Source: Rhodanobacter sp. FDAARGOS 1247 (lineage in GTDB: Bacteria > Pseudomonadota > Gammaproteobacteria > Xanthomonadales > Rhodanobacteraceae). Taken from it: 64,000 nt of DNA. Shown here piece by piece: positions 2,947 to 22,950 of the stretch. Position 1 is the first letter of the stretch; every line of letters starts with the position of its first letter. The stretch is taken from positions 3,658,001 through 3,722,000 of the forward strand of contig NZ_CP069535.1 in assembly GCF_016889805.1 (NCBI RefSeq). The letters are read 5' to 3'. The position numbers and the translations under genes are program-made. Under the pieces are notes generated by a model. The model was given only the letters and a program-made list of their open reading frames with translations. It was not told the origin of the DNA and made no database searches.

Positions 2947-3331
2947 CCACCGATTCGCCAATGGGTCGATTGACGAACAGGCCCCGGCGACGTCATGCCA
3001 TCAGGCATGGCGTCGGCTTGAATGAGAAAGGGAAATCCGTGCGCCACCCTGATCGGGTCACGGCAGGAAGGACGCAGTACGCGCGGGGTCGTAAGCCATC
3101 CACAAAGCCAAGGCGGCCGTGCCTGTTCGCGGCATTCCATGAGGTCCGCGCGACCCCGGGGGTTCGTGCGTCCTCGAAAAGCCCGGAAGTGCCTGTTCGG
3201 ATGACTTGCGCCCGTTGCCGGGCCAGCGACGCAAGCCAGGTTTTGCAACGAGCCACGGAGTGCGTGGCATGCCCTCAGGTTCGACGGACAGCCGTGTCCG
3301 TCGCCTTCATCCACTGTTTGGGAATTCGTCC

Positions 3332-11607: not shown

Positions 11608-14250
11608 TTATGGCGACTTCACCGGTGCACGGCAATCGGCCAAGCGCTTGCGCGCCAGCTCCAGGCCCTTCGCATCCTGCGCATGCTGGCGCGCCTCGAT
11701 GACCACCTGCCAGTTGCGTTCGCACAGCTCGCCATGATGCGTGCCCTGCTGCCACGACTGGATCGCCAGGTTCTGCGCGTTCAGATAGTCGCCCTTGCCC
11801 AGCGCCAGTTCCGCATGCTGCTGCATCTGTTCGGGCCAGCTCGGCGCTGGTGGCGGTGGCGGTTGGGGCACAGCCGGCAGCGGCACGGTGGTGGCCGCTG
11901 CCGTGGGAACGAGTTCGCCCGACTTGCGCAGCGGGGTCAGCGATTCGAACTTGTTCTGGTAGTCGTCGGTGATCTGCTTGGCATCGGCGCCGCCGCGAAT
12001 CACCCGCGGCGTGATCAGCACGATCAGCTCGGTGCGGTTGCGGCTGCGATTGGTGCTGCCGAACAACCGGCCCAGCACGGGGATGCGGTTGAGGCCGGGA
12101 ATGCCGGTGTCGGTGTTGCCTTCGGCCTGCTCGATCAGGCCGCCCAGCAGCACGGTCTGGCCGCTCTGCACGGCCACCTGGGTGGCCAGCTTGCGCTGCG
12201 AGATCGCCGGGTTGCCATTGACCAGGGGCACCGAACGGTCGGCCTGGCTCACCTCCTGGCTGATGTTCATGTAGACCAGGCCGCCGGGATTGATCCGCGG
12301 CTGCACGTTGAGGATCACGCCGGTGTTGAGGTAGCTGACCTGGCTGTAGGTGCTGGCGTTGCCGATGCCGGTGTTCACGCTGGTCTGGTTGATCGGGATC
12401 TGGTTGCCCACCGCAATGCTGGCAGTCTGGTTGTTCATCACCACCATCGACGGCGCCGACAGCGTCTTGGTGTTGCCGCTGGTCTCCATCGCGCGCACGG
12501 CGACCTGCAGGTTGCTGTTGAGGAAGGAGTAGAAGAACGGTTCGCCACGAAACGCGTTGCCGCCCTGGCCCAGGCCGATCTGGCGATGGCGGTAGGGCTG
12601 GCCCGGCACGAGTACCGAGTTGCCGCTGTCGTCGCTGGTGGTGGTGCTGCCGGTGAGTCCTTCCAGATACCACTGCACGCCGAACTGGAATTCGCCGGTG
12701 AGGTTCACTTCCAGGATGCGCGTCTCGATCTGCACCTGCATCGGCACGTTGTCGAGCTTGCCGATGGCCGACTTGATCTCTTCCCACTGCGAGGGCCGCG
12801 CGCGCACCAGCAGCTGGTTGTTGCTGTCGACCGAACTGATCCGCACGCTGCCGTCGCTGGAGCTGTACTGCTGGTCACCGGCAGCGCCGTTGCCACCGGC
12901 GGCATTGCCGAAGCTGCTGCCCGAGGTGCTGCCGAAGCCGCCGCTGGTGCCGCTGCCGCCGGCATCGCGAGCGCTGCCCATGTTCAGGCCGCCATTGCTG
13001 TCGGTGCCATTGATGCCGCCGCCGATGCCGCCGTTGCGCGAGCCGTCCGCCGCATTGCCGAAGCCGCCGGCGGTGCTGCCCATGCTGGTGCCGCTGGCGT
13101 TCTCGGCGCTGCCCAGGGTGGCGCCGGTGAGGCCCGGGCCCACCTGGCCGCCGCTGTCGCCGGTGCCGCCGCCACCGGCGCCGTTGGTGTAGATGTTGGC
13201 CAGGTAGCGGGCCAGGTCCGAGGCCTTGATGTTGCGCACGTCGTAGACGAACAGCTGGGGCTCGTTGCCACCGCCACGATCGATGCGGGCGATCCAGTCG
13301 CCCACTTCGCGCAGGTAGTCGGGCTGGGTGCTGATCACCACCAGCGCGTTGGTGCGCTCGATCGGGATGAAGCGCAGCATGCCGGCCAGCGGGGTGTCGC
13401 CGTGCACGCCGAACATGCCATCCAGCTTGGGCATCAGGTCGCCGACCGTGGCGTACTGCAGGTTGAACACGCCCACCGACATGCCACGCAGCCAGTCGAC
13501 GTCGAAGGTACGCACCATGCTCTGGTAGTTGGCCAGTTCCTGCGGCGTGCCCGACATCACCAGCAGGTTGCGCGCCGGGTCCGCCAGCAGGGTGGCGTCG
13601 GGCCGCGCGAACGGCTTGATCAGTTTCTGCATCTCGGTGGCCGAGATGTAGCGCAGCGGGAACAGCCGCGCCTGCAGCCCGCCCTGCGGCGCGGTGGCGC
13701 CCAGGCTGGGCACCAGGTTGCCGGCCACCGCATCCTTCTGCGGCATCACCACGTAGCCGCCGTCGCGATGCACCAGCGCGTTGCCGGTCCAGCCCAGCAG
13801 GGTCTCGAGGATCGGCAGTGCCTGGCCGACGTCGACCGGCTCGGAGGTGGAGAACGAGATGTTGCCCTGCACGCCGGGCACGATGGTGTAGTTCTGCTTC
13901 AGCAGGTCGCCGAGGATCGCCTTGACCACCGCCTGCACCGGCTGGTTCTCGAAGTTGAAGGTCACCGCGCCACTGCCGCTGGCCGCCGGCCTGGGCGTGG
14001 CCAGCGCGCCGGGATGGATGAACTGGCCGCTGCCGTGGCTGATCTCGGGGCTCGCCGTGGCCTCGCTGCCACTGGCCACGCTGGTGTTCAACGGCAGCGG
14101 CGCCGGCACCGGGTTCTGCGTGCCGGCCATCGCCTCGCGCTGCAGGGCGCCGTCGTCATGCGGCTGCGGCAGGCTGGCGCAACCGGCCACGCCGACCACG
14201 AAGGCGAGCGTGGCGGCGCGCAGGGTTTGCTGGGTGAGCGTGCGGAACAT
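11608..14250 (-). CDS. gspD: Type II secretion outer-membrane secretin GspD (XpsD type)
   Basis: 880 residues. The N terminus has a lipoprotein signal (lipobox VAGC, lipidated Cys24), as in Xanthomonas XpsD. N0 and N1-N3 domains follow, starting with VTFNFENQPVQAVVKAIL at about 96-113. The secretin core lies at about 500-750, with IETRILEVNLTGEFQFG, VGNQIPI, QSGQTVLLGGL and GLNRIPVLGRLFG. Two parts are unusual. Residues about 357-464 form a Gly/Ser/Asn-rich insertion inside the third N domain. After the secretin core comes a C-terminal extension with a proline-rich stretch and a helical segment. It is the last gene of the operon, three bases after the gspN/C stop, as in the xps order. It forms the exit pore for folded exoproteins. 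Confidence 0.93.
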   Translation of the reverse strand: MFRTLTQQTLRAATLAFVVGVAGCASLPQPHDDGALQREAMAGTQNPVPAPLPLNTSVASGSEATASPEISHGSGQFIHPGALATPRPAASGSGAVTFNFENQPVQAVVKAILGDLLKQNYTIVPGVQGNISFSTSEPVDVGQALPILETLLGWTGNALVHRDGGYVVMPQKDAVAGNLVPSLGATAPQGGLQARLFPLRYISATEMQKLIKPFARPDATLLADPARNLLVMSGTPQELANYQSMVRTFDVDWLRGMSVGVFNLQYATVGDLMPKLDGMFGVHGDTPLAGMLRFIPIERTNALVVISTQPDYLREVGDWIARIDRGGGNEPQLFVYDVRNIKASDLARYLANIYTNGAGGGGTGDSGGQVGPGLTGATLGSAENASGTSMGSTAGGFGNAADGSRNGGIGGGINGTDSNGGLNMGSARDAGGSGTSGGFGSTSGSSFGNAAGGNGAAGDQQYSSSDGSVRISSVDSNNQLLVRARPSQWEEIKSAIGKLDNVPMQVQIETRILEVNLTGEFQFGVQWYLEGLTGSTTTSDDSGNSVLVPGQPYRHRQIGLGQGGNAFRGEPFFYSFLNSNLQVAVRAMETSGNTKTLSAPSMVVMNNQTASIAVGNQIPINQTSVNTGIGNASTYSQVSYLNTGVILNVQPRINPGGLVYMNISQEVSQADRSVPLVNGNPAISQRKLATQVAVQSGQTVLLGGLIEQAEGNTDTGIPGLNRIPVLGRLFGSTNRSRNRTELIVLITPRVIRGGADAKQITDDYQNKFESLTPLRKSGELVPTAAATTVPLPAVPQPPPPPAPSWPEQMQQHAELALGKGDYLNAQNLAIQSWQQGTHHGELCERNWQVVIEARQHAQDAKGLELARKRLADCRAPVKSP

Positions 14251-14928: not shown

Positions 14929-15572
14929 GGCGCGTCTCCCGGCGAAGTCGCCGGCGCGCCGGGCCATGCGGGCGCGACCCGCGCCGGCCGCACATAACCG
15001 GACAGGGTGAACTGCACTTCCAGCGGCACGGCACCACCCTGCTGCGCGGCCACCGGATTGCGATAGATGCTGAGGTCGTCGATGAACAGATACGGCGTGC
15101 CCTGCTCCAGCGCCTGCATCACCGCGGCCAGCGGCTCGATGTCGCAACTCAGGCTGATGCTCACCGCGGCCTTGCGATACGGTTCGCCGACGGCCGGCGC
15201 GGGACTGGGCAGCGGCATCTTCTGGCTCACCGTGCACGATCCGCTGCCGGCATGCGCCGCGACCACGTCGACCACGCGCTGCATCAGGTCCGCCGAAGCG
15301 GTGTTGGGATCATCCGCCGACAGGAACGCGCTGCTGGCCGCCTGGCCGGCACCGAGCGCGGCGATCCGCTGCAGCAACGCGGGCTTCTCGGCGATCGCGG
15401 CGGCGTAGCGGCTCTGCGTGTCGCGCAGGTCGGCCATCTCGCCACGGATCTGCTGCAGCGGCGCCACGAACCACCAGTGCAGCAACACGAAATAGGCCAG
15501 CAGCAGCGCGAGCAGCAGCAGGAGCACCGCCGCGATGCGGCTGTCACGCCGGTTCATCGCCGCCAGCTTCAT
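14925..15572 (-). CDS. gspM: Type II secretion platform protein GspM
   Basis: 215 residues. One N-terminal transmembrane helix (about 11-32) precedes a coiled segment (LQQIRGEMADLRDTQSRYAAAI) and a small ferredoxin-like periplasmic domain, the layout of the GspM/PilO group. GspM pairs with GspL in the inner-membrane platform. The gene overlaps both gspL (ATGA at 15569-15572) and gspN/C (ATGA at 14925-14928), which supports this start and a single cotranscribed unit. A few more basic residues lie before the helix (MKLAAMNRRDSR). A second possible start at the sixth codon would give a shorter tail but lose the overlap. Confidence 0.85.
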   Translation of the reverse strand: MKLAAMNRRDSRIAAVLLLLLALLLAYFVLLHWWFVAPLQQIRGEMADLRDTQSRYAAAIAEKPALLQRIAALGAGQAASSAFLSADDPNTASADLMQRVVDVVAAHAGSGSCTVSQKMPLPSPAPAVGEPYRKAAVSISLSCDIEPLAAVMQALEQGTPYLFIDDLSIYRNPVAAQQGGAVPLEVQFTLSGYVRPARVAPAWPGAPATSPGDAP

Positions 15573-16735
15573 GGCGTGCCCCCGGCGCTCGCGGCATTCG
15601 GCGCGGGCTTCGGCTGGTTGACCCGGGCGGTGAGGTAGAAGCGCTCCTTGCCGGTGGTGGGATCGGGCTGGATGCTGCCCTGGAAACTGGCGTCGGTGAT
15701 CAGGCGCGAATCCTTCAAGGTGTCGAGCAGTTTCGCGGCCTGCTGGCTCTGCCCCTGGAAGCCGATCTGACCGGTGTTGTCCACGCTGAGGCGTTCCAGC
15801 CACGCGCTGTCGGGCAGGCGCGCGGTGGCGTCTTCGAGCACGCTGAGCATCGCCACGCTGTGCTTCTTGCGCTGGGCCAGGAAGCCGGCGGCGCCGGCGT
15901 TGTCCTGCAGTTGCTGGCGCAGCGCCGCCACCTGCTGCGCTTCGCCGCGCATGCCTTCGACGTCCGTGCGCATCTGCTCCAGCGCCAGCTGCCGGTTGTG
16001 CAGCCATTCGCCCAGCACGCAGCCCAGCAACACCACCACGGCCGCGGCCAGCAGCAGGTTGAGCCGGCGCCGCGGATGCGCGTGGCGCGGCACCTGCGCC
16101 GCCGGCAACAGGTTCACGCCGAGGCGGCCATGGCCATCGGCCACGTCCACCGCGTCCACACTGATCGACTGTGCCTGCAGACGCGCCAGCACGGGATCGA
16201 GGACGTCGCGGGTGACCACCACCAGTTCCGCGTTGAAGCGCCCGGGCGGCGCCGCCGTCGCCAGCTCGCGCACGGCGTGGTGCACCTGGGCCAGGTTGAA
16301 CGGGGTCTGCCGGTCCATCTCGAAACCGGCCACCTGCATCAGGTTGTCGCGTGCCGCCAGCGGCAGGCTCAGGGTGCGCCGCAGCACCAGGGCGGACGGC
16401 AGCAACAGGGCCACGCGCAGATCCTCGCGATCGACGCGTTGCAGTGCATCGCGCAACGCCGCCGGCGGCTTGCCCGCGCCGTCGATGCCCGGCTCCGTTT
16501 CATCCCAGCTCGACAGCAGCCCGGCGTGACCGTTGCGGCGCAGATCCCAGCGGGCGCCGGCGCACTGCAGCAGGTACCAGTCGGCGCCGCTGCCGAAGGC
16601 GCCACGCCAGCGCGGCGGCAGCAGCGCGCGCAACTCGCCACCCCACCAGTGCAGGAAACCCGGCAACGGCGAGGCACGCCAACTGCGGCGTACGACATCG
16701 ACCAGCGGCCGCAGTGACTGCGTTGCCGAACTCAT
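15569..16735 (-). CDS. gspL: Type II secretion platform protein GspL (PilM/PilN-like)
   Basis: 388 residues. The cytoplasmic part (about 1-220) is an actin-like fold with LLLPSALVLRRTLSLPLAA and FEMDRQTPFNLAQVHHAV. It is followed by one transmembrane helix (about 226-244) and a periplasmic PilN-like domain with coiled coil and LPDSAWLERLSVDNTGQIGFQGQSQQAAKLLDTL. In the family the cytoplasmic domain binds the GspE ATPase and the periplasmic domain binds GspM. The ATG lies within the end of gspK (4-bp overlap at 16732-16735), and the stop overlaps gspM by the same arrangement. The family assignment by domain layout is strong. Confidence 0.88.
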   Translation of the reverse strand: MSSATQSLRPLVDVVRRSWRASPLPGFLHWWGGELRALLPPRWRGAFGSGADWYLLQCAGARWDLRRNGHAGLLSSWDETEPGIDGAGKPPAALRDALQRVDREDLRVALLLPSALVLRRTLSLPLAARDNLMQVAGFEMDRQTPFNLAQVHHAVRELATAAPPGRFNAELVVVTRDVLDPVLARLQAQSISVDAVDVADGHGRLGVNLLPAAQVPRHAHPRRRLNLLLAAAVVVLLGCVLGEWLHNRQLALEQMRTDVEGMRGEAQQVAALRQQLQDNAGAAGFLAQRKKHSVAMLSVLEDATARLPDSAWLERLSVDNTGQIGFQGQSQQAAKLLDTLKDSRLITDASFQGSIQPDPTTGKERFYLTARVNQPKPAPNAASAGGTP

Positions 16736-17601
16736 TCCGCCTCCCCTTCCTGCCAGCGCAAGACGGCGTACGGTTGCGCCTGCCCCGCCTGCAGGCGAAT
16801 CGTGGCGCGCAGGACCGCGCGCGTGCCGTCGGCCAGCGTAGCCTCGGACCGGATACTATGCGTTGTTCCGCTGCCCAGAACCAGCTGCGGGTCCTTCGCG
16901 TTCTGCTGCCGTGCAGCCTCGAGCTGCTGGCGCTGTTCCGGCGTCATTCCCGGGATCGCCGCCAGCGCCAGCGGCGGCGCGGTATTCGGATCGGGGCTGG
17001 AACTGCCCGACCAGATCGTCAGCGCCGGCGCCAGCAGCCGGTACAGCGAGGGCGTGACGCCCAGCACCATCTGCAACTCCTCGACGCTGGCGAACGGGCC
17101 GTGGCGTGGACCGTAGTTTCTCCCGGCCGCCAGATAGCCGGCCCGGGCGCTGGCGTCATCGCCCTCCACCGCCGGCAGGCTGCGCCAGTCGACCACCTGA
17201 TCGACCAGCACCTGTGCCGGCGCAGGCTTCAAACCGGCCGCCTGGAACAGCGCCAGCAGTACCTCGGGCGAGGCCGCGTTGAGATCGACCTTGCCGCCTT
17301 CGTCGATCGCGCGCACGGTGATCGTCGCGTTGTCGTAGTGGAAGGTGTAGACCCGGCCATCGGCCATCCAGCGCTGCTTCGCCTGCGGGTCCTGCAGGGC
17401 ATAGGCCGCGCGCATCAGGCCGGCCTCGGCCGCGTAGTGCGCCTGGGTCTGGGCAAACTGGTAACGCGCCTGCAGGCCCTCGGTGCGCGCCAGCGCGGCA
17501 TAACCGCCGAGCAGGATCGCCAGCAGGGTGCACGCCCACAACACCAGCAGCAGCGCCACGCCGCGCTGACGCCCGAGCAGCTGCGGCGCCGCCCGCCTCA
17601 T
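16732..17601 (-). CDS. gspK: Type II secretion minor pseudopilin GspK
   Basis: 289 residues. The prepilin leader MRRAAPQLLGRQRG ends before VALLLVLW, with no Glu at position 5, which is the GspK pattern that allows it to cap the pseudopilus tip. The large globular domain typical of GspK follows, including the helix-hairpin-like KVDLNAASPEVLLALF, VDWRSLPAVEGDD, and NTAPPLALAAIPGMT segments. It starts by a 4-bp overlap with gspJ and ends by a 4-bp overlap with gspL. The leader is 14 residues long, close to the family norm, and so differs from the stretched leaders in gspG, gspH and gspI upstream. Confidence 0.9.
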   Translation of the reverse strand: MRRAAPQLLGRQRGVALLLVLWACTLLAILLGGYAALARTEGLQARYQFAQTQAHYAAEAGLMRAAYALQDPQAKQRWMADGRVYTFHYDNATITVRAIDEGGKVDLNAASPEVLLALFQAAGLKPAPAQVLVDQVVDWRSLPAVEGDDASARAGYLAAGRNYGPRHGPFASVEELQMVLGVTPSLYRLLAPALTIWSGSSSPDPNTAPPLALAAIPGMTPEQRQQLEAARQQNAKDPQLVLGSGTTHSIRSEATLADGTRAVLRATIRLQAGQAQPYAVLRWQEGEAE

Positions 17602-18254
17602 CGCAGGCTCCCGCCGCGCAGGCCCATGCGCACCAGTCCGGCCGGCGAGGCGTTCACCCGCAGCGGCACCTCGAGCTGCGGCCACTCGACGGTGCCGTTC
17701 ACCTGCAGCTCGACCCGCACCAGTTGCGGCAGCACGCGGCCGTCGGCCCAGGTCGGCGACCACGCCACCGCGGCACCTTTCGAATCGACGCCGCGATAGC
17801 TGAAGCTGCCGCTGCTGACGTGGTCGACCAGCACCTGCGGATCGCCCAGCGCCTGCGGCGGCTGGCCATCGGGCGGCAGCAAGGCCAGGCTGAGTTCCAG
17901 CCGCTGGCCGCCGTGGTCGTCGTCGACCAGGCGCAGCTGCTGCAGTTGCGGGCCGAGCTTGCCCAGGTAACCGGGCAGCGGCGCCACGTAGCGCATCTCC
18001 CGGGCACTGCCGACGAAGTAGACCGGTTCGCCATGATCGGTGCGATCGATCGGCTGGGCCAGGCTCTGCGCCAGTTCGCGGCGCAGGAACTGCTGGGCCG
18101 AGCGCACCTGGTCCAGCCGCTCGATCGCCGCCGTGCCGGAGCGCACGCTGTGCGTGGCGGTGCGGATGCCCGAATACACGCCGACCAGCAACAAGGCCAG
18201 CAGCACCAGCGAGGCGAGCACTTCCAGCAGGGTGAAACCGGCCTGCCGTTTCAT
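17598..18254 (-). CDS. gspJ: Type II secretion minor pseudopilin GspJ
   Basis: 218 residues. A short, ordinary prepilin leader MKRQAG precedes FTLLEVLASLVLLALLLVGVYSGI, with Glu5 present. The C-terminal part has the GspJ pattern of paired strands (VRSAQQFLRRELAQSLAQP, YVAPLPGYLGKLGPQLQQL, RVELQVNGTVEWPQLEVPLRV). GspJ joins GspI and GspK at the tip of the pseudopilus. Start and stop overlap gspI and gspK by 4 bp. This leader is a useful internal control: it shows what the leaders of gspG, gspH and gspI probably looked like before repeat insertion. Confidence 0.9.
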   Translation of the reverse strand: MKRQAGFTLLEVLASLVLLALLLVGVYSGIRTATHSVRSGTAAIERLDQVRSAQQFLRRELAQSLAQPIDRTDHGEPVYFVGSAREMRYVAPLPGYLGKLGPQLQQLRLVDDDHGGQRLELSLALLPPDGQPPQALGDPQVLVDHVSSGSFSYRGVDSKGAAVAWSPTWADGRVLPQLVRVELQVNGTVEWPQLEVPLRVNASPAGLVRMGLRGGSLR

Positions 18255-18760
18255 GGTCCGGCCTGCGCCTGGCCCGAGGCCAGTGGACCACCCAGCCGCA
18301 GGGTGCGGAAGTGGGCCGCCCGCGGATGGGCCTGCGGCCCCCACGAGACGGTGAGGTCGAGCTGGTACAGCTGCAGCGGCGCGCCCGGCACCACGGGGCC
18401 GCCGGTGTTCCACGGCCGTACGTCGAGCTGCCAGCGGTACTGCGTATCGAAGCGGCCGGAACGATTGCCCGGCTTCACCGCCTCGCCCACGAAGGCACTG
18501 TCCAGCAGGCTGCGCGCACGCATCGCCGCCTGGCTGTATTCCGCCGCGTTGTGGGTCAGGCCGATCGACGCGCCGGCCACCTTCATCAGGGCGGTGAACG
18601 CGATCGCCAGCAGCATGATCGCGGCGATCACTTCCAGCAGGCTGAAACCGCGTTGGCGCCGGGCATGGGGAATGGGGAATGGGGAACGGCAAAGGCGGGC
18701 AGCCGGCGCTGGCGCGCCTGGCCGAATCCCGAATCCCGATTCCCGATTCCCGGGTTTCAT
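18251..18760 (-). CDS. gspI: Type II secretion minor pseudopilin GspI with extended leader
   Basis: 169 residues from ATG 18760, which overlaps the gspH stop (ATGA). The mature pilin starts FSLLEVIAAIMLLAIAF with Glu5. The leader is 38 residues long. Codons 1-2 (ATG AAA) run straight into a GGGAATCGGGAATC-type repeat, then read MKPGNRESGFGIRP and on to PHARRQRG at the cleavage site. Reading the codons between 18760 and the cleavage site, I find no in-frame ATG, GTG or TTG, so the insert must be translated unless a rare start such as ATT is used. The globular part (FRTLRLGGPLASGQ at the end) is small, as usual for GspI. It overlaps gspJ by 4 bp. Confidence 0.87.
   Translation of the reverse strand: MKPGNRESGFGIRPGAPAPAARLCRSPFPIPHARRQRGFSLLEVIAAIMLLAIAFTALMKVAGASIGLTHNAAEYSQAAMRARSLLDSAFVGEAVKPGNRSGRFDTQYRWQLDVRPWNTGGPVVPGAPLQLYQLDLTVSWGPQAHPRAAHFRTLRLGGPLASGQAQAGP
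18664..18758. repeat. Palindromic GGGAAT/ATTCCC repeat inside the gspI leader
   Basis: About 95 bp. The left part has three tandem GGGAATGG-like units (18667-18686), and the right part has four ATTCCCG/AATCCCG units (18723-18758). The two halves are roughly complementary, so the element can fold as a long hairpin. Two related elements lie at 19285-19384 and 19862-19975. All three lie just after the start codon of a pseudopilin gene. Confidence 0.8.
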
Positions 18761-19386
18761 CGGGAAGCCACCGCATCGACCACCCGCACTTCGCCGGTCA
18801 GCCACGACACGTTGACGTGCCACTCGCGCTGGCCGCTGTGCAAGGTGATGCGGCCACCAGTGGAGCTGCCGTCGGGGAAGAAGCGGATGCGCCCGGTGTG
18901 GTCGTTCGGCTGGTCTTCCTTCGCGCTGGTGATGCTGATGTGCATGCCGACGGGCAGCTGCACGTCGTGCCGCCTCGCATCGTCGTAGCTGTTCGCCCGG
19001 GTATCGACGTCGAAGTGCTGCTCCTGCCCGCGCACGATCGCCTGCGCCCGGGTCGCGCGCAGCGCGCCGGCCAGTTCGCCGCTGGCCGCGCGCACCCGCG
19101 CACCGGCCAGGCCCTGCGTCACCGACACCGACACCGCCGCCACCGCGATCCCGATCAGCAGGATCACCGCCAGCATTTCGAGCAGGGTGAAGCCCCCGCT
19201 CTTATGGAACAAGGCGCCTCGCGCCTTTGCCTCCTCCCCCGCTCCGCGGGGGAGGATTGAGGAGGGGGTAGCGCACTGCGCGCGCGGGGAACGGGAAACG
19301 GGGAACAGGGAATGGGCAGAGCAGGCAAGCGTGTGGGCGCACGCTTTTCCGATTCCCGATTCCCGAATCCCGATTCCCGGCTTCAT
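18757..19386 (-). CDS. gspH: Type II secretion minor pseudopilin GspH with extended leader
   Basis: 209 residues from ATG 19386, overlapping the gspG stop (ATGA). The mature pilin starts FTLLEMLAVILLIGIAVAAV, with Glu5, and continues with the GspH pattern RAASGELAGALRATRAQAIV and RIRFFPDGSSTGGRITL. The leader is 65 residues: MK, then repeat-derived sequence (PGIGIRESGIGK), then sequence encoded by a second palindrome (SSILPRGAGEEAKAR), then LFHKSGG at the cleavage site. A TTG at 19210-19212 could start a normal 7-residue leader, but only a weak AGG lies upstream. The two possibilities are kept open. It overlaps gspI by 4 bp. Confidence 0.87.
   Translation of the reverse strand: MKPGIGIRESGIGKACAHTLACSAHSLFPVSRSPRAQCATPSSILPRGAGEEAKARGALFHKSGGFTLLEMLAVILLIGIAVAAVSVSVTQGLAGARVRAASGELAGALRATRAQAIVRGQEQHFDVDTRANSYDDARRHDVQLPVGMHISITSAKEDQPNDHTGRIRFFPDGSSTGGRITLHSGQREWHVNVSWLTGEVRVVDAVASR
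19151..19274. repeat. 124-bp segment duplicated in gspG (copy 1, in gspH)
   Basis: Compared base by base with 19726-19849 (offset 575, no gaps), 116 of 124 positions agree. It covers the first codons of the mature pilin, the LFHKSGG cleavage region and the palindrome at 19228-19250. Prepilin N termini are naturally similar, but the identity continues through non-pilin repeat sequence. That points to a copied segment or gene conversion. Confidence 0.8.
19228..19250. repeat. GC-rich REP-like palindrome in the gspH leader
   Basis: CCTCCCCCGC and its complement GCGGGGGAGG flank TCC, followed by ATTGAGGAGGGGG. The same palindrome is at 19803-19825. It is translated in the leaders as part of SSILPRGAGEEAK. 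Confidence 0.75.
19285..19384. repeat. Palindromic GGGAA/ATTCCC repeat inside the gspH leader
   Basis: The left arm has GGGAACGGGAAACGGGGAAC-like units (19288-19314). The right arm has ATTCCCGATTCCCGAATCCC-like units (19351-19380). It is the same type as at 18664-18758 and begins immediately after codon 2 of gspH. Confidence 0.8.
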
Positions 19387-19982
19387 TGCCAGTTGCCCAC
19401 GTCCTTGCTGTAGCCGTCGCCGCCGGGCTTGCCGTCCTGGCCGTAGAAGATCAGGTCGAAGCTGCCGTTCTGGCCCGGATACTGGTAGCCGAAGGCATGG
19501 CCCCACGGGTCTTTCAGTTCGGAGGCCTTGGCATAGGGACCCTGCCAGTTCGCCGCGTTCGGTGGCCGGGTCACCAGGCCGTCGAGCTGCTGCGGCGGGG
19601 TGCCGTTGTCCAGCGCGTAGTTCTCGATCTTCTGGCTCAGCGTCATCAGCTGCGACTTGCCGGCGCCGTACTTGCCCTTGTCGACGTTCTTGCCGACCTG
19701 GGTCACCACCACCGCGCCGATGATGCCGATCAGCACGATCACCGCGAGCATTTCGAGCAGGGTGAAGCCCCCGCTCTTATGAAACAAGGCGCTTCTTGCC
19801 TTCGCCTCCTCCCCCGCTCCGCGGGGGAGGATTGAGGAGGGGGCAGCGCCCCGCGCGCGCCCGTGAATGGCGAATGGGGCTTGGGGAATGGGAGAAGCCA
19901 GGGTCGCCGCCTTGCGGGCTCTTGCCATTCCCGATTCTCGATTCCCTATTCCCTGCCCCACGAATTCCAAACGCTTCATCAT
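19383..19982 (-). CDS. gspG: Type II secretion major pseudopilin GspG with extended leader
   Basis: 199 residues from ATG 19982. The mature protein (about 127 residues) is a standard major pseudopilin: FTLLEMLAVIVLIGIIGAVVV with Glu5, then LSQKIENYALDNGTPP, NWQGPY, LKDPWGHAFGYQYPG, and the calcium loop GQDGKPGGDGYSKD before the final W. The leader is 72 residues, against 5-10 in typical GspG. ATG 19982 has a strong ribosome site (GAGGAG at 19990-19995) directly after the gspF stop, so this is the original start. After MMKR the leader is encoded by two repeat elements and ends in LFHKSGG. A TTG at 19785-19787 could give a 7-residue leader. The stop overlaps the gspH start. Confidence 0.9.
   Translation of the reverse strand: MMKRLEFVGQGIGNRESGMARARKAATLASPIPQAPFAIHGRARGAAPSSILPRGAGEEAKARSALFHKSGGFTLLEMLAVIVLIGIIGAVVVTQVGKNVDKGKYGAGKSQLMTLSQKIENYALDNGTPPQQLDGLVTRPPNAANWQGPYAKASELKDPWGHAFGYQYPGQNGSFDLIFYGQDGKPGGDGYSKDVGNWQ
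19726..19849. repeat. 124-bp segment duplicated in gspH (copy 2, in gspG)
   Basis: Counterpart of 19151-19274, with 8 mismatches and no gaps. It includes the palindrome at 19803-19825 and the TTG candidate start at 19785-19787. Confidence 0.8.
19862..19975. repeat. Palindromic GGGAAT/ATTCCC repeat inside the gspG leader
   Basis: The left arm has GAATGGCGAATGGGGCTTGG-like units from 19864. The right arm has ATTCCCGATTCTCGATTCCC-like units (19928-19952). It is more diverged than the elements in gspH and gspI, so perhaps older. It begins a few codons after the gspG start. Confidence 0.7.
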
Positions 19983-19997: not shown

Positions 19998-21215
19998 TTA
20001 CTGAATATTGCTGGTCAGACTCAACAGCGGCAGCAGGATCGCGGCCATGATGATCGCCACCAGCACGGTCATCACGATGGTCAGCGCCGGCACCAGTGCG
20101 GCCAGCAAACGATCGATCGCGCGTTTGGACTCAAGTTCAAACGTGTCGGCGACTTTCAGCAGCATGGTGTCGAGCTGGCCGGCTTCCTCGCCGACCTGCA
20201 CCATCTGCATCGCCAGTCGGGGAAACAGCTTCGACTGGCCCAGCGCCAGGCTCAGGCCCGCGCCGCCCTTGACCTGTTCCTGCGCCGCGGCCAGCGCCGC
20301 GTCGAGCGCACGGTTGCCGGTGACCTGGCGCGCGATGCTCAGCGCATTCAGCAGCGGCACGCCGTTCTTCAGCAAGGTGCCCAGGGTGCGGGCGATCCGC
20401 GCCGTCTCCACCTTCAGCAGCAGCGGCCCGACCAGGCGCATGTGCAGCAGGCGGGCATGCCAGGCCTGCCGCGCCGCGGGATCGCGCAGGTGCGCGCGCC
20501 AGCCGAACAGGCCGCCGCCGAGCAGCAGCAGGATCAGCCACCACCAGGCCTGCAGCGTGTTGCCCACGGTCAGCACGGCCTGGGTGATCCACGGAATCGG
20601 TACCTGCATGTCCTCGAAGATCGGCACGAACTGCGGCACCACGTAGGCCAGCAGCAGCACCAGCGAACCGAGCACGCCGACCAGCAGGAAGGCCGGGTAG
20701 ATCAGCGCATTGACGATGCTGCCGCGCATCGCCTGGGCGCGCTCGAGGTAGTCGGCCAGCCGGCGCAGGGTTTCCTCCAGCGAGCCGCCCGCTTCGCCGG
20801 CGCGCACCAGGCTCACGTAGAGCTTGGGAAACACGCCGTGTTCCTCGTCGAGCGCGGAGGACAGCGTGTTGCCGCCCCGCACGCGATCGCGCACGCGTTC
20901 GATCAGCTTCTTCGCGTGCTCGCCCTCGGGCAGGTCGAGCAGGATGCCCAGCGCGCGATCCAGCGGCTGGCCGGCGCCCAATAGGGTCGCCAGCTGATGG
21001 GTGAACTGGGCCAGCTGGTCGCCGTTGAACGGCCCGCGCTTGAACAGCGCGGCAAACCCGCTGCCACCGCCCGCACCATCGGCCGGCAGCGCTTCCAGCG
21101 GCGTATGGCCCTGGTCCTGCAACCGGCCGATCACTTCCTCGACACTGGCCGCTTCCATCTGCCCCTGCAGCGTCTCGCCGGCGTCGTTGACCGCCTTGTA
21201 ACGGAACTGCGCCAC
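19998..21215 (-). CDS. gspF: Type II secretion inner-membrane protein GspF
   Basis: 405 residues, starting with GTG at 21215, one base after the gspE stop. The N-terminal domain is FRYKAVNDAGETLQGQMEAAS. Two T2SSF four-helix domains follow (about 68-195 and 272-395), each with the family pattern (LARTLGTLL-like, GxSLxxAL, FPxLxxxMVxVGExxGxLD). Three transmembrane helices lie at about 170-192, 217-240 and 378-400. GspF is the polytopic core of the platform that couples the GspE ATPase to pseudopilus assembly. It is followed by gspG after 15 bp. No anomalies are seen. Confidence 0.95.
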   Translation of the reverse strand: MAQFRYKAVNDAGETLQGQMEAASVEEVIGRLQDQGHTPLEALPADGAGGGSGFAALFKRGPFNGDQLAQFTHQLATLLGAGQPLDRALGILLDLPEGEHAKKLIERVRDRVRGGNTLSSALDEEHGVFPKLYVSLVRAGEAGGSLEETLRRLADYLERAQAMRGSIVNALIYPAFLLVGVLGSLVLLLAYVVPQFVPIFEDMQVPIPWITQAVLTVGNTLQAWWWLILLLLGGGLFGWRAHLRDPAARQAWHARLLHMRLVGPLLLKVETARIARTLGTLLKNGVPLLNALSIARQVTGNRALDAALAAAQEQVKGGAGLSLALGQSKLFPRLAMQMVQVGEEAGQLDTMLLKVADTFELESKRAIDRLLAALVPALTIVMTVLVAIIMAAILLPLLSLTSNIQ

Positions 21216-21216
21216 C

Positions 21217-22950
21217 TCAGCCTTCCTGCGTCACGCGCAGGACCTCTTCCAGCGTGGTGATGCCGGCCACGGCCTTGGCGATGCCGTCCTCGTACATCGT
21301 GCGCATGCCTTCGGCACGGGCCTGCTTCTCGATGTCGCCCTCGTTCGCGCGCTGCATCACCAGACGGCGCAGCGGGTCGCTCATGGTGAGGAACTCCATG
21401 ATCGCGCGACGGCCGCGATAGCCACTGGGATTCGCCGCGCTGGTGCCGGGCTTCCACAGGCGGATCGGGCGTTCGTCGGTGTATTTCTCCAGCTCGAACT
21501 GTTCGATCACCTCGGGCAACGCCTCGTAGGCAATCGCGGTTTCCGGATCGAGCCGGCGCACCAGCCGCTGCGCCAGGATGCCGTTGATGGTGGAGCCGAG
21601 CAGGTAATCCTCCACGCCCATGTCGAGCAGGCGGGTGACGCCGCCGGCCGCGCTGTTGGTGTGCAGCGTGGACAGCACCAGGTGGCCGGTGAGCGCGGAC
21701 TGGATCGCGATGCGGCAGGTCTCCAGGTCGCGCATTTCGCCGATCATGATCACGTCCGGGTCCTGGCGCATGATCGAGCGCAGGGCGCCGGAGAAATCCA
21801 GCCCGATCTGCGGCTTCACCTGGATCTGGTTGATGCCTTCGAGCTGGTATTCGACCGGGTCCTCGACGGTGATGATCTTCACGTCGTTGGTGTTGATCTG
21901 GCTCAGCGCGGTGTACAGCGTGGTGGTCTTGCCCGAACCGGTGGGGCCGGTGACCAGCAGGATGCCGTGCGGCTTGTTCAGCACCTCGACGAAGCGCTGC
22001 TTGAAACTGTCGGTGAAGCCCAGCGATTCGAAATCGAATACCACCGATTCGCGGTCCAGGATGCGCATCACCACCGATTCGCCGAAGCTGGTCGGCACGG
22101 TGGACACGCGCAGGTCCAGTTCCTTGCCCTGCACGCGCAACTGGATGCGGCCGTCCTGCGGCAGGCGGCGCTCGGCGATGTTGAGCCGCGCCATGATCTT
22201 CACGCGCGAAATCACCGCGGCGGTCGACGACGACGGCGGCGCTTCCACTTCATGCAGTACGCCATCGATGCGGTAACGCACCTTCAGCCGGTTCTCGAAC
22301 GGTTCGATGTGCACGTCGGACGCGCGCTGTTCCACCGCGCGCTGCAGGATCAGGTTCACCAGCCGGATCACCGGCGCCTCGGAGGCGAGGTCGCGCAGGT
22401 GTTCGACGTCGTCCTCCTCGGCGGCGCTGCCGTCGAGGTTCTCCACGATGGTGCCCATCGCCGAGCGGCCGGACCCGTAGTAGCGCTCGATCAGGCCATC
22501 GATTTCCGAACGCAGGCCCACCCGCAATGCCACCGGGCGCCCGGCGGCCAGCTGCACCGCCTGCAATGGATACGGATCGGCCGGATCGGCGACGATCAAC
22601 GCCAGCCCGTGGGCTTCGTCCTGCACCGGCACCACGTGCTGCTGCTTGAGGAAACGCAGCGACACGTCGAGATCCGCCGGCGGCAGTTCCGGCGCATCGC
22701 GCGCGGACAGCAGCGGCACCTGCAGCAGCTCGGCCCAGCCCTCGGCCAGGTCGCGCTCGGACACCAGGCCAAGACGCGCCATCAGCGTGGTCAGCGTGCC
22801 CTCGGTCGACTCCTCGTGCAGCCGGCGCGCGCGCACCAGATCGCCCTCCTTCAGGCGACCACGCGCCACCAGCCACGCGCAGACTTCCGCCTCGCGATCC
22901 TCCACGGCCATGCCCGCCCCGCCGACCGCCGGCTTAATCACTGCCGACAT
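21217..22950 (-). CDS. gspE: Type II secretion ATPase GspE, zinc tetracysteine motif absent
   Basis: 577 residues from ATG 22950, preceded by GGTGGAGG. N-terminal GspE/XpsE domains (about 18-155) precede the secretion ATPase core: Asp box, Walker A GPTGSGKT (335-342), Walker B region MRQDPDVIMIGEMRD with E405, and His box LSTLHTNSA. It powers pseudopilus assembly by binding GspL and GspF. Most GspE proteins have a zinc-binding CxxC-CxxC module between the His box and GYRGR. Here that stretch (about 464-511, LVRRLDPETAIAY to ANPSGYRGR) has no Cys at all. It is the first gene of the operon and is divergent from the exported nuclease gene. An upstream start at 23007 has no ribosome site. Confidence 0.93.
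   Translation of the reverse strand: MSAVIKPAVGGAGMAVEDREAEVCAWLVARGRLKEGDLVRARRLHEESTEGTLTTLMARLGLVSERDLAEGWAELLQVPLLSARDAPELPPADLDVSLRFLKQQHVVPVQDEAHGLALIVADPADPYPLQAVQLAAGRPVALRVGLRSEIDGLIERYYGSGRSAMGTIVENLDGSAAEEDDVEHLRDLASEAPVIRLVNLILQRAVEQRASDVHIEPFENRLKVRYRIDGVLHEVEAPPSSSTAAVISRVKIMARLNIAERRLPQDGRIQLRVQGKELDLRVSTVPTSFGESVVMRILDRESVVFDFESLGFTDSFKQRFVEVLNKPHGILLVTGPTGSGKTTTLYTALSQINTNDVKIITVEDPVEYQLEGINQIQVKPQIGLDFSGALRSIMRQDPDVIMIGEMRDLETCRIAIQSALTGHLVLSTLHTNSAAGGVTRLLDMGVEDYLLGSTINGILAQRLVRRLDPETAIAYEALPEVIEQFELEKYTDERPIRLWKPGTSAANPSGYRGRRAIMEFLTMSDPLRRLVMQRANEGDIEKQARAEGMRTMYEDGIAKAVAGITTLEEVLRVTQEG

Follow-up and report, generated by a model that had tools for sequence, protein, structure and literature searches.

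How do three consecutive pseudopilin genes accommodate repeats between their start codons and the site at which the leader is removed? Prepilin leaders usually comprise about 5-10 residues. On the minus strand of the 64-kb Rhodanobacter window (the whole stretch of DNA analyzed here), palindromic repeats lie between the start codon at the junction and the G^F site of gspG, gspH, and gspI. The initial annotation had assigned leaders of 72, 65, and 38 residues to these genes and the leader MKRQAG to gspJ; coordinates and frames were correct when rechecked. The gspG precursor (19383..19982, 199 aa; PF08334 [T2SSG] and TIGR01710 above cut-off) has an open frame from ATG 19982 through to GFTLLE, giving a leader of 72 residues with G(-1) counted. 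The gspH precursor (18757..19386, 209 aa) matches GspH PF12019 (the query began five codons upstream of the ATG) and has a coupled start at -1, ATG 19386 overlapping the TGA of gspG, which results in a 65-residue leader. Likewise, ATG 18760 of gspI (18251..18760, 169 aa; PF07963, and XpsI model NF047828 with E 2.7e-25, below cut-off) overlaps the TGA of gspH and opens a leader of 38 residues. The neighboring gspJ (17598..18254; PF07963 at residues 1-27, and NF006453 with E 2.1e-37, below cut-off) has a normal leader of six residues. The same strand carries gspF (19998..21215, PF00482), gspE (21217..22950, coordinates as queried, PF00437), gspK (16732..17601, PF21687), a gspL-like gene (15569..16735, PF05137 above and PF05134 below cut-off), and the secretin gene gspD (11608..14250, PF00263). 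One prepilin-peptidase N-terminal domain (A24_N_bact) is encoded in the genome.

GspG, GspH, and GspI combine the N-methylation motif GFxxxE with a family domain, as expected of pseudopilins. PF07963 matches all three, and the XpsH and XpsI models match as well, yet under the NCBI cut-offs. Counted from the junction starts, none of the three leaders falls within the usual length range; a short leader (seven residues) is reached only with TTG starts, and only in gspG and gspH. In each of these two genes, one in-frame TTG stands six codons ahead of the codon for the mature Gly, so an internal start is possible for both. The long gspG leader holds three more ATG, GTG, or TTG codons near its beginning. 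For gspI, the claim that no in-frame ATG, GTG, or TTG occurs from after codon 1 to the mature part was confirmed.

Two kinds of repeats largely make up these leaders. The heptamer repeat consists of 7-nt units (GGGAATC, GGGAATG, GGGATTC) in two inverted arms with a variable center. The GGGAATSGGGAATSGGGAAT heptamer pattern, with at most three mismatches, has 10 matches in the window, all within the gspG, gspH, and gspI leaders, and no match in 100 shuffles of the window. On the minus strand, the repeat covers 19857..19968 in gspG (pattern matches 19870-19889 and 19927-19953), 19285..19383 in gspH, where it starts right after the gspG stop codon (19345-19378), and 18656..18754 in gspI (18661-18687 and 18725-18751). 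The second (GGGGGAGGAGG) hairpin repeat, also on the minus strand, is present in the leaders of gspG (19775..19856, ending near the possible TTG start 19787) and gspH (19198..19280, containing the possible TTG start 19212); a 60-nt piece of it has nine matches genome-wide, counting these two copies. Three of five folded stretches were more stable than all 200 shuffles, with z scores of -3.6 for the gspI heptamer (18656-18758), -4.8 for the gspH heptamer (19285-19396), and -2.9 for the gspG hairpin. The gspH hairpin stretch did not go beyond its shuffles (z -1.8, 9 of 200 equally stable), and the gspG heptamer stretch folded no better than its own (z -1.0, 32 of 200).

Of the approximately 30 heptamer elements that grouping by eye gave for the genome (among the matches listed), three lie in this operon. 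Elsewhere in the genome, the repeat is mostly intergenic and often close to a stop codon. The initial annotation had presumed that such repeats avoid coding sequence; this premise fails for the heptamer repeat, which also occurs in frame within the genes for NAD synthetase (nadE) and a UvrD-type helicase of the same genome. Relatives both with and without the in-frame loop insert (nadE/UvrD-type helicase) were found. A heptamer tandem encodes the same seven-codon cycle whichever frame is read. The idea that the repeat is designed to be stop-free was dismissed: among 16384 tandem 7-mers, 8264 lack a stop codon in every one of the six frames, and the GGGAATA variant does not belong to these. The genome contains 14 N_methyl matches, 11 of them over cut-off; none of the 11 matches outside gspG, gspH, and gspI coincides with a heptamer place among the matches listed (of 104).

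We then followed the junctions through 139 genomes of the family, which served as the main sample; these genomes are related, and counts of junctions are not independent. For gspI and gspJ, junctions of 60 nt or more were considered long. Junctions whose next motif fell outside the contig or beyond 420 nt were excluded. Long junctions were found in 32 of 133 gspI and 17 of 126 gspJ genes read, and all 49 (32/32 and 17/17) are open and in frame with the ATGA/GTGA overlap start. This result is not circular, because the search for the motif covered every frame. The lengths of gspI and gspJ junctions vary in threes. For 94 long gspH junctions (the motif search included GFTLFE forms), ATG or GTG codons located -4 to +15 nt from the upstream stop and open to GF numbered 82 in the mature frame vs. 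1 and 5 in the remaining frames; with a window of -4 to +40, the numbers were 94 vs. 13 and 15. The gspH genes of G211, G161, G109, and G198 do not use the exact overlap start. Among the 52 gspG junctions counted as long (at least 100 nt), ATG or GTG codons at 0 to 60 nt numbered 38 in the mature frame vs. 11 and 4, and the expected codon is absent from 14 of the 52. Since the inserts are often open in other frames too (gspI 48/64, gspJ 20/34, gspH 120/188), the frame and not its openness is the signal, and an open frame alone was dropped as evidence. That the inserts present are those keeping the frame is statistically shown for gspI and gspJ and less strictly for gspH and gspG. A second, deeper set of records, which overlaps the first, has the coupled frame in 14 of 17 long gspI and four of five long gspJ junctions. 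In this set, the gspI genes of L369, L370, and L374 are outside the coupled frame, with leaders of 13-15 codons; that of L373 is in frame, yet its farthest start gives 15 codons only, and the 38-codon gspJ leader of L381 is outside the coupled frame.

The frame is kept, but the residues are not. Changes distribute almost evenly over the codon positions of the leaders (26:24:35), whereas the mature parts are constrained (23:15:133). In the nearest relative, G033, the three leaders together differ by 11:10:11, and the gspG leader is exactly 78 nt shorter. Inserted leader residues are close to neutral. The six codons immediately preceding that of the mature Gly carry a net charge of 1.65-1.97 in long leaders and 1.74-2.18 in short ones, compared to 0.5-1.1 per six residues at -7 to -18 of long leaders; basic residues beside the cleavage site are the only leader residues kept.

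Comparing relatives, as had been suggested for this locus, revealed that long and short leaders coexist, that their presence is patchy even among close relatives (e.g., G035, G022, G031), and that both sequence and length differ. A FastTree phylogeny of 131 genomes requires at least 27 changes between long and short for gspG, 15 for gspH, 21 for gspI, and 10 for gspJ. The heptamer (at most 3/14 mismatches) was detected in 29 of 32 long gspI and eight of 17 long gspJ junctions (0.6 and 0.2 in mononucleotide shuffles), and in 46 of 94 long gspH and 27 of 52 long gspG junctions (2.0 and 3.0); at this threshold, 48 gspH and 25 gspG junctions gave no match. In 40 genomes of the same genus, the number of heptamer copies elsewhere correlates with heptamer leaders (Spearman 0.64) and with long junctions of any kind (0.45). 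Separately, the gspI leader of Pseudomonas L358 is extended in frame by an apparently different repeat, a hint of convergence.

These observations can be read in several ways. Translation could begin 3' of the repeats, at TTG 19787 in gspG, TTG 19212 in gspH, and a rare codon in gspI, so that the repeats would be ordinary spacers, maybe supplying a ribosome-binding site. These two TTG codons, also present in gspG and gspH of G033, are close to the GGGGGAGGAGG stretch of the second repeat, and L369, L370, L373, and L374 combine a long spacer with a short gspI leader. But an internal start would free the frame relative to the overlap start, and 49 of 49 long gspI and gspJ junctions in the main sample keep it. 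Moreover, the gspI leader of the window offers no such codon, and in 25 of 133 gspI genes the nearest ATG, GTG, or TTG (at least four codons away) still leaves at least 20 residues (at least 30 in 16 of 133). We consider this reading unlikely. That the inserts reflect errors of assembly or annotation is next to inconceivable: repeats are a known source of assembly errors, but the same pattern recurs in separate assemblies, in some on one contig (e.g., G155), and in the second set of records, and lengths of gspI and gspJ junctions change by threes.

Alternatively, the hairpins could be regulatory, tuning translation of the pseudopilins or mRNA stability and hence stoichiometry; the initial annotation had proposed an effect on translation or stoichiometry. 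The stability of three of the five folded stretches and the location of three of the elements in this operon (among the matches listed) would fit such a role. Yet the repeats are patchy among close relatives and vary in sequence and length, the gspG heptamer stretch folds like its shuffles, and heptamer leaders track the genome-wide copy number. A regulatory RNA was also rejected as a candidate: between 16500 and 21500, no Rfam family reached its gathering threshold. With patchy presence, even changes over codon positions, and copy-number tracking, the proposal gained no positive support, and we regard it as very improbable.

Very probably, the cleaved leaders are translated but neutral spacers that accommodate a coding-tolerated repeat, one that entered the junctions repeatedly, with the frame kept. 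A dispersed palindromic repeat would have entered the tight gspG-H, H-I, and I-J overlaps and the start of gspG again and again. Since the downstream gene starts at an ATGA/GTGA overlap at the upstream stop, an insert extends the N terminus of the next pseudopilin, and in-frame inserts would be those that persist. Judging from the frame, the extension is probably translated; it would remain cytoplasmic and be removed after G(-1) by a PilD-type peptidase. The mature protein would be unchanged and the inserted residues therefore nearly neutral. Selfish repeats may thus use the leader as a disposable spacer, with basic residues near the membrane retained, and in-frame sites inside protein loops (nadE, UvrD-type helicase) would tolerate the heptamer repeat as well. 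The earlier suggestion that the long leaders are made and accepted by prepilin peptidase has gained strong backing from frame conservation over many genomes, as far as sequences can tell. On the best reading, prepilin peptidase would need to handle leaders whose length ranges from about 40 to more than 70 residues. It also seems somewhat probable that cleavable prepilin leaders generally offer a safe harbor to palindromic repeats tolerated in coding sequence, one family of which would behave in Rhodanobacter and related bacteria like Rickettsia palindromic elements (RPE), with class III signal peptides having no practical length limit (at least 70) as long as basic residues are kept.

If true, in-frame palindromic elements, in the accounts consulted described for Rickettsia, extend to the largely free-living Rhodanobacter family, which suggests a habitat for such repeats: protein segments that get discarded. 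With leaders ranging from about 5 to more than 70 residues in one orthologous gene, nature provides a series of prepilins on which to test directly how much length prepilin peptidase and co-translational targeting tolerate. For these pseudopilins, assuming short leaders is unsafe when calling gene starts.

Type IVb leaders reach up to about 30 residues. Searching the literature by title and opening of the abstract returned no account of repeats in pseudopilin leaders, and GGGAATCGGGAATC was not found in the text searched. The portions consulted of PMC11981180 (Xanthomonas Xps cluster) and PMC4971541 contain nothing on leader length. According to excerpts of PMC10191384 and PMC6497953, type IVb pilins and S. 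sanguinis prepilins have leaders of 8-18 residues processed after Gly(-1). The leaders described here likewise exceed the usual length, with processing at Gly(-1) predicted, but they comprise 38-72 residues (74 in a relative), consist largely of repeats, are hypervariable, and belong to T2SS pseudopilins. REP/BIME elements are, as outlined in PMC2817692, small palindromic repeats mobilized by RAYT transposases. The heptamer repeat is also a small palindrome, mostly intergenic and often near a stop codon, but it has in-frame coding copies. The genome has one Y1_Tnp gene, whose 3.3-kb locus contains two isolated 14-nt heptamer matches with three mismatches and no heptamer cluster. A close parallel in description is RPE (Ogata et al. 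2000, 2002), as outlined in passages of PMC10969869 and PMC3733652: dispersed palindromic elements of ∼100-150 nt, in frame in unrelated protein genes and apparently tolerated by the host protein products. Similarly, one genome carries the heptamer repeat in frame in gspG, gspH, gspI, NAD synthetase, and a UvrD-type helicase. In contrast to RPE as described there, the heptamer repeat is hosted by another bacterial group, is built from 7-nt units whose seven-codon cycle does not depend on the reading frame, lacks a conserved encoded peptide, with leader changes near even over codon positions, and has the cleaved leader as its recurrent coding site.

The minus strand of the window carries an Xps-type type II secretion cluster, in which gspE, gspF, gspG, gspH, gspI, gspJ, gspK, a gspL-like gene and gspD were recognised. 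The genome holding it is 3.92 Mb in size, has a single match to the prepilin-peptidase domain A24_N_bact, and encodes a mature GspG with 100% identity to that of Rhodanobacter spathiphylli B39. The ATG starts of gspH and gspI overlap the TGA of the preceding gene. Palindromic repeats lie between the start codons and the G^F cleavage site: a dispersed repeat of 7-nt units with two inverted arms (the heptamer repeat) is present in gspG, gspH and gspI, and the first two genes also contain a second repeat, a hairpin. The initial annotation had described these three leaders as long and extended by such repeats, and our analysis confirmed this: they measure 72, 65 and 38 residues, respectively, versus 6 in gspJ. 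All 10 matches to the heptamer pattern in the 64 kb fall within the three leaders (0 in 100 shuffles). Furthermore, gspG and gspH have in common a stretch of 154 nt (window 19132-19285 and 19707-19860; 89% identity), which covers the second repeat together with the first codons of the mature part and suggests copying between the neighbouring genes. In the window genome, gspG and gspH may instead start at a TTG close to the cleavage site, so the strongest claim is limited to gspI and gspJ of Rhodanobacter and its nearer relatives.

We gathered the gspF-G-H-I-J region from the 139 Rhodanobacteraceae genomes (18 genus codes) whose places were listed or fetched, compared to 228 of 233 genomes with a GspG match, so that the deep genera are under-represented. 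From each upstream stop, we looked for the next prepilin motif in all frames up to 420 nt away and dropped junctions without one, leaving 137 gspG, 137 gspH, 133 gspI and 126 gspJ junctions (2, 2, 6 and 13 not read). Both long and short junctions are present among these relatives, and the claim that the inserts keep the frame held beyond the window: all 32 long gspI junctions (60 nt or more) are open and in the frame of the overlapping start, and 17/17 long gspJ junctions are likewise in frame. For the 94 long gspH junctions, an open ATG or GTG at -4 to +15 nt of the upstream stop was found 82 times in the mature frame versus 1 and 5 times in the others; with the range widened to -4 to +40, these numbers are 94 versus 13 and 15. 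The start differs from the exact overlap in four long gspH junctions of this sample. In the 52 gspG junctions of 100 nt or more, the counts for an ATG or GTG at 0 to 60 nt are 38 versus 11 and 4, and 14 have no such start in the mature frame. Because other frames of the inserts are frequently open too, the frame itself is the evidence. A tree of 131 genomes requires at least 21 changes between the long and short states for gspI and at least 10 for gspJ; for gspI alone, at 1 in 3 per change, the probability of keeping the frame is of the order of 1e-10. Even from the nearest ATG, GTG or TTG, 20 or more residues remain in 25 of the 133 gspI leaders and 30 or more in 16, the longest without an internal start having 74 residues including G(-1).

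Two further observations concern the junctions themselves. At gspG-gspH in one genus (g1), all 18 short-leader genomes have a TAA or TAG stop with the start 2-4 nt beyond, while 23 of 25 long-leader genomes have an ATGA or GTGA overlap; thus, the insert accompanies a change of the junction. The 50-codon gspJ leader of genome G004 (L027), with an ATG about every five codons and apparently a short tandem repeat, seems to have grown by another route than the palindromic repeat.

A second set comprised 80 named records (75 parsed), some of them the same genomes as in the main sample. Here, the coupled frame was found in 14 of 17 long gspI and four of five long gspJ junctions. The gspI exceptions (L369, L370, L374) combine a long spacer with a leader of only 13-15 codons, as does L373, which is in frame. 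This is the appearance expected of an untranslated spacer, and it occurs in Dokdonella and further relatives. For gspJ, the one junction out of the coupled frame (L381) uses another start, which gives a leader of 38 codons. All gspH, gspI and gspJ leaders are short in six Luteibacter loci (17 codons or fewer). Those read in 31 Pseudomonas loci (30 gspH, 29 gspI, 16 gspJ) have 12 codons or fewer, save one gspI: that of Pseudomonas sp. MWU16-30317 (L358, about 3000-3200) has a 59-codon leader, which is in the coupled frame and looks like it holds a different repeat recurring nearby.

We then compared substitutions by codon position. Sixty same-genus pairs exceed 93% identity in gspG; we examined the first 25, some of which have genomes in common, and counted only gap-free rows in which both leaders are long. 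Changes were 26:24:35 for the leaders (801 nt compared) and 23:15:133 for the mature parts of the genes (3723 nt). Compared with the leaders of its nearest relative (G033), the three of the window genome show 11:10:11 changes, and the G033 gspG leader is shorter by exactly 78 nt. Leader residues are therefore almost free to drift, with the frame maintained. The membrane-adjoining stretch is an exception: the six codons that precede the mature Gly codon have a net charge of about +1.7 to +2.2 whether or not an insert is present, and farther upstream it is 0.5-1.1 per six. This pattern fits the account in PMC10191384, where the leader is cytoplasmic by the positive-inside rule, variable in length, and cut off after Gly or Ala by a membrane peptidase.

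With up to 3 mismatches allowed in 14 nt, heptamers are present in 29/32 long gspI, 46/94 gspH, 27/52 gspG and 8/17 gspJ junctions, compared to 0.6, 2.0, 3.0 and 0.2 in mononucleotide shuffles; the remaining long junctions have none at this threshold. At least one such junction is present in 54 of the 139 genomes and 11 of the 18 genera. Copy number is highly variable within the family, with a match in 135 of 230 genomes. Among 40 same-genus genomes, kinship being ignored, heptamer leaders rise with copies elsewhere (Spearman 0.64), as insertion pressure would predict; for long junctions of any kind the value is 0.45.

The window genome has 104 overlapping pattern matches, and the places among those listed were grouped by eye into ~30 elements, 3 of them in gsp leaders. 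A stricter scripted pattern recovered 22 of 27 elements examined outside these leaders (L202-L228). With gene starts set by coding score, 18 of the 22 do not overlap a called gene, two overlap one by 8 nt and two lie inside one; for six, a longer reading of the adjoining frame would include part or all of the element. The two inside genes are in frame, in NAD synthetase (L213:1654-3294) and a UvrD-type helicase (L214:570-2849), and the loops at the same place are shorter in several relatives. For NAD synthetase, a script was given 28 of 30 loci and matched 16, leaving 12 unmatched. Loop length is 10 residues in five other families of the order; one further family and same-genus G017 have 12, genomes G006 and G012 have 16 and 18, and seven genomes of the same genus, that of the window included, have 34-56. 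A copy of the second repeat lies directly upstream of an ATG at another locus (L232, about 2050-2120), where its purine-rich end may act as a ribosome-binding site.

Inserts are thus seen at the junctions and in other coding genes, patchily present, with the frame and the basic residues by the membrane kept and the other residues near-neutral. The ribosome would read through the insert, making it part of a leader that presumably remains cytoplasmic; a PilD-type prepilin peptidase would then cleave it off, leaving the mature pseudopilin unaffected. Compared to Rickettsia palindromic elements (RPE), as described in PMC10969869 and PMC3733652, the heptamer repeat is alike in lying in frame within protein genes, with loop length differing among relatives, but it keeps no conserved peptide. 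For this reason, and since RPE were compared by description only, it is not classed among them here but regarded as a repeat that works like RPE.
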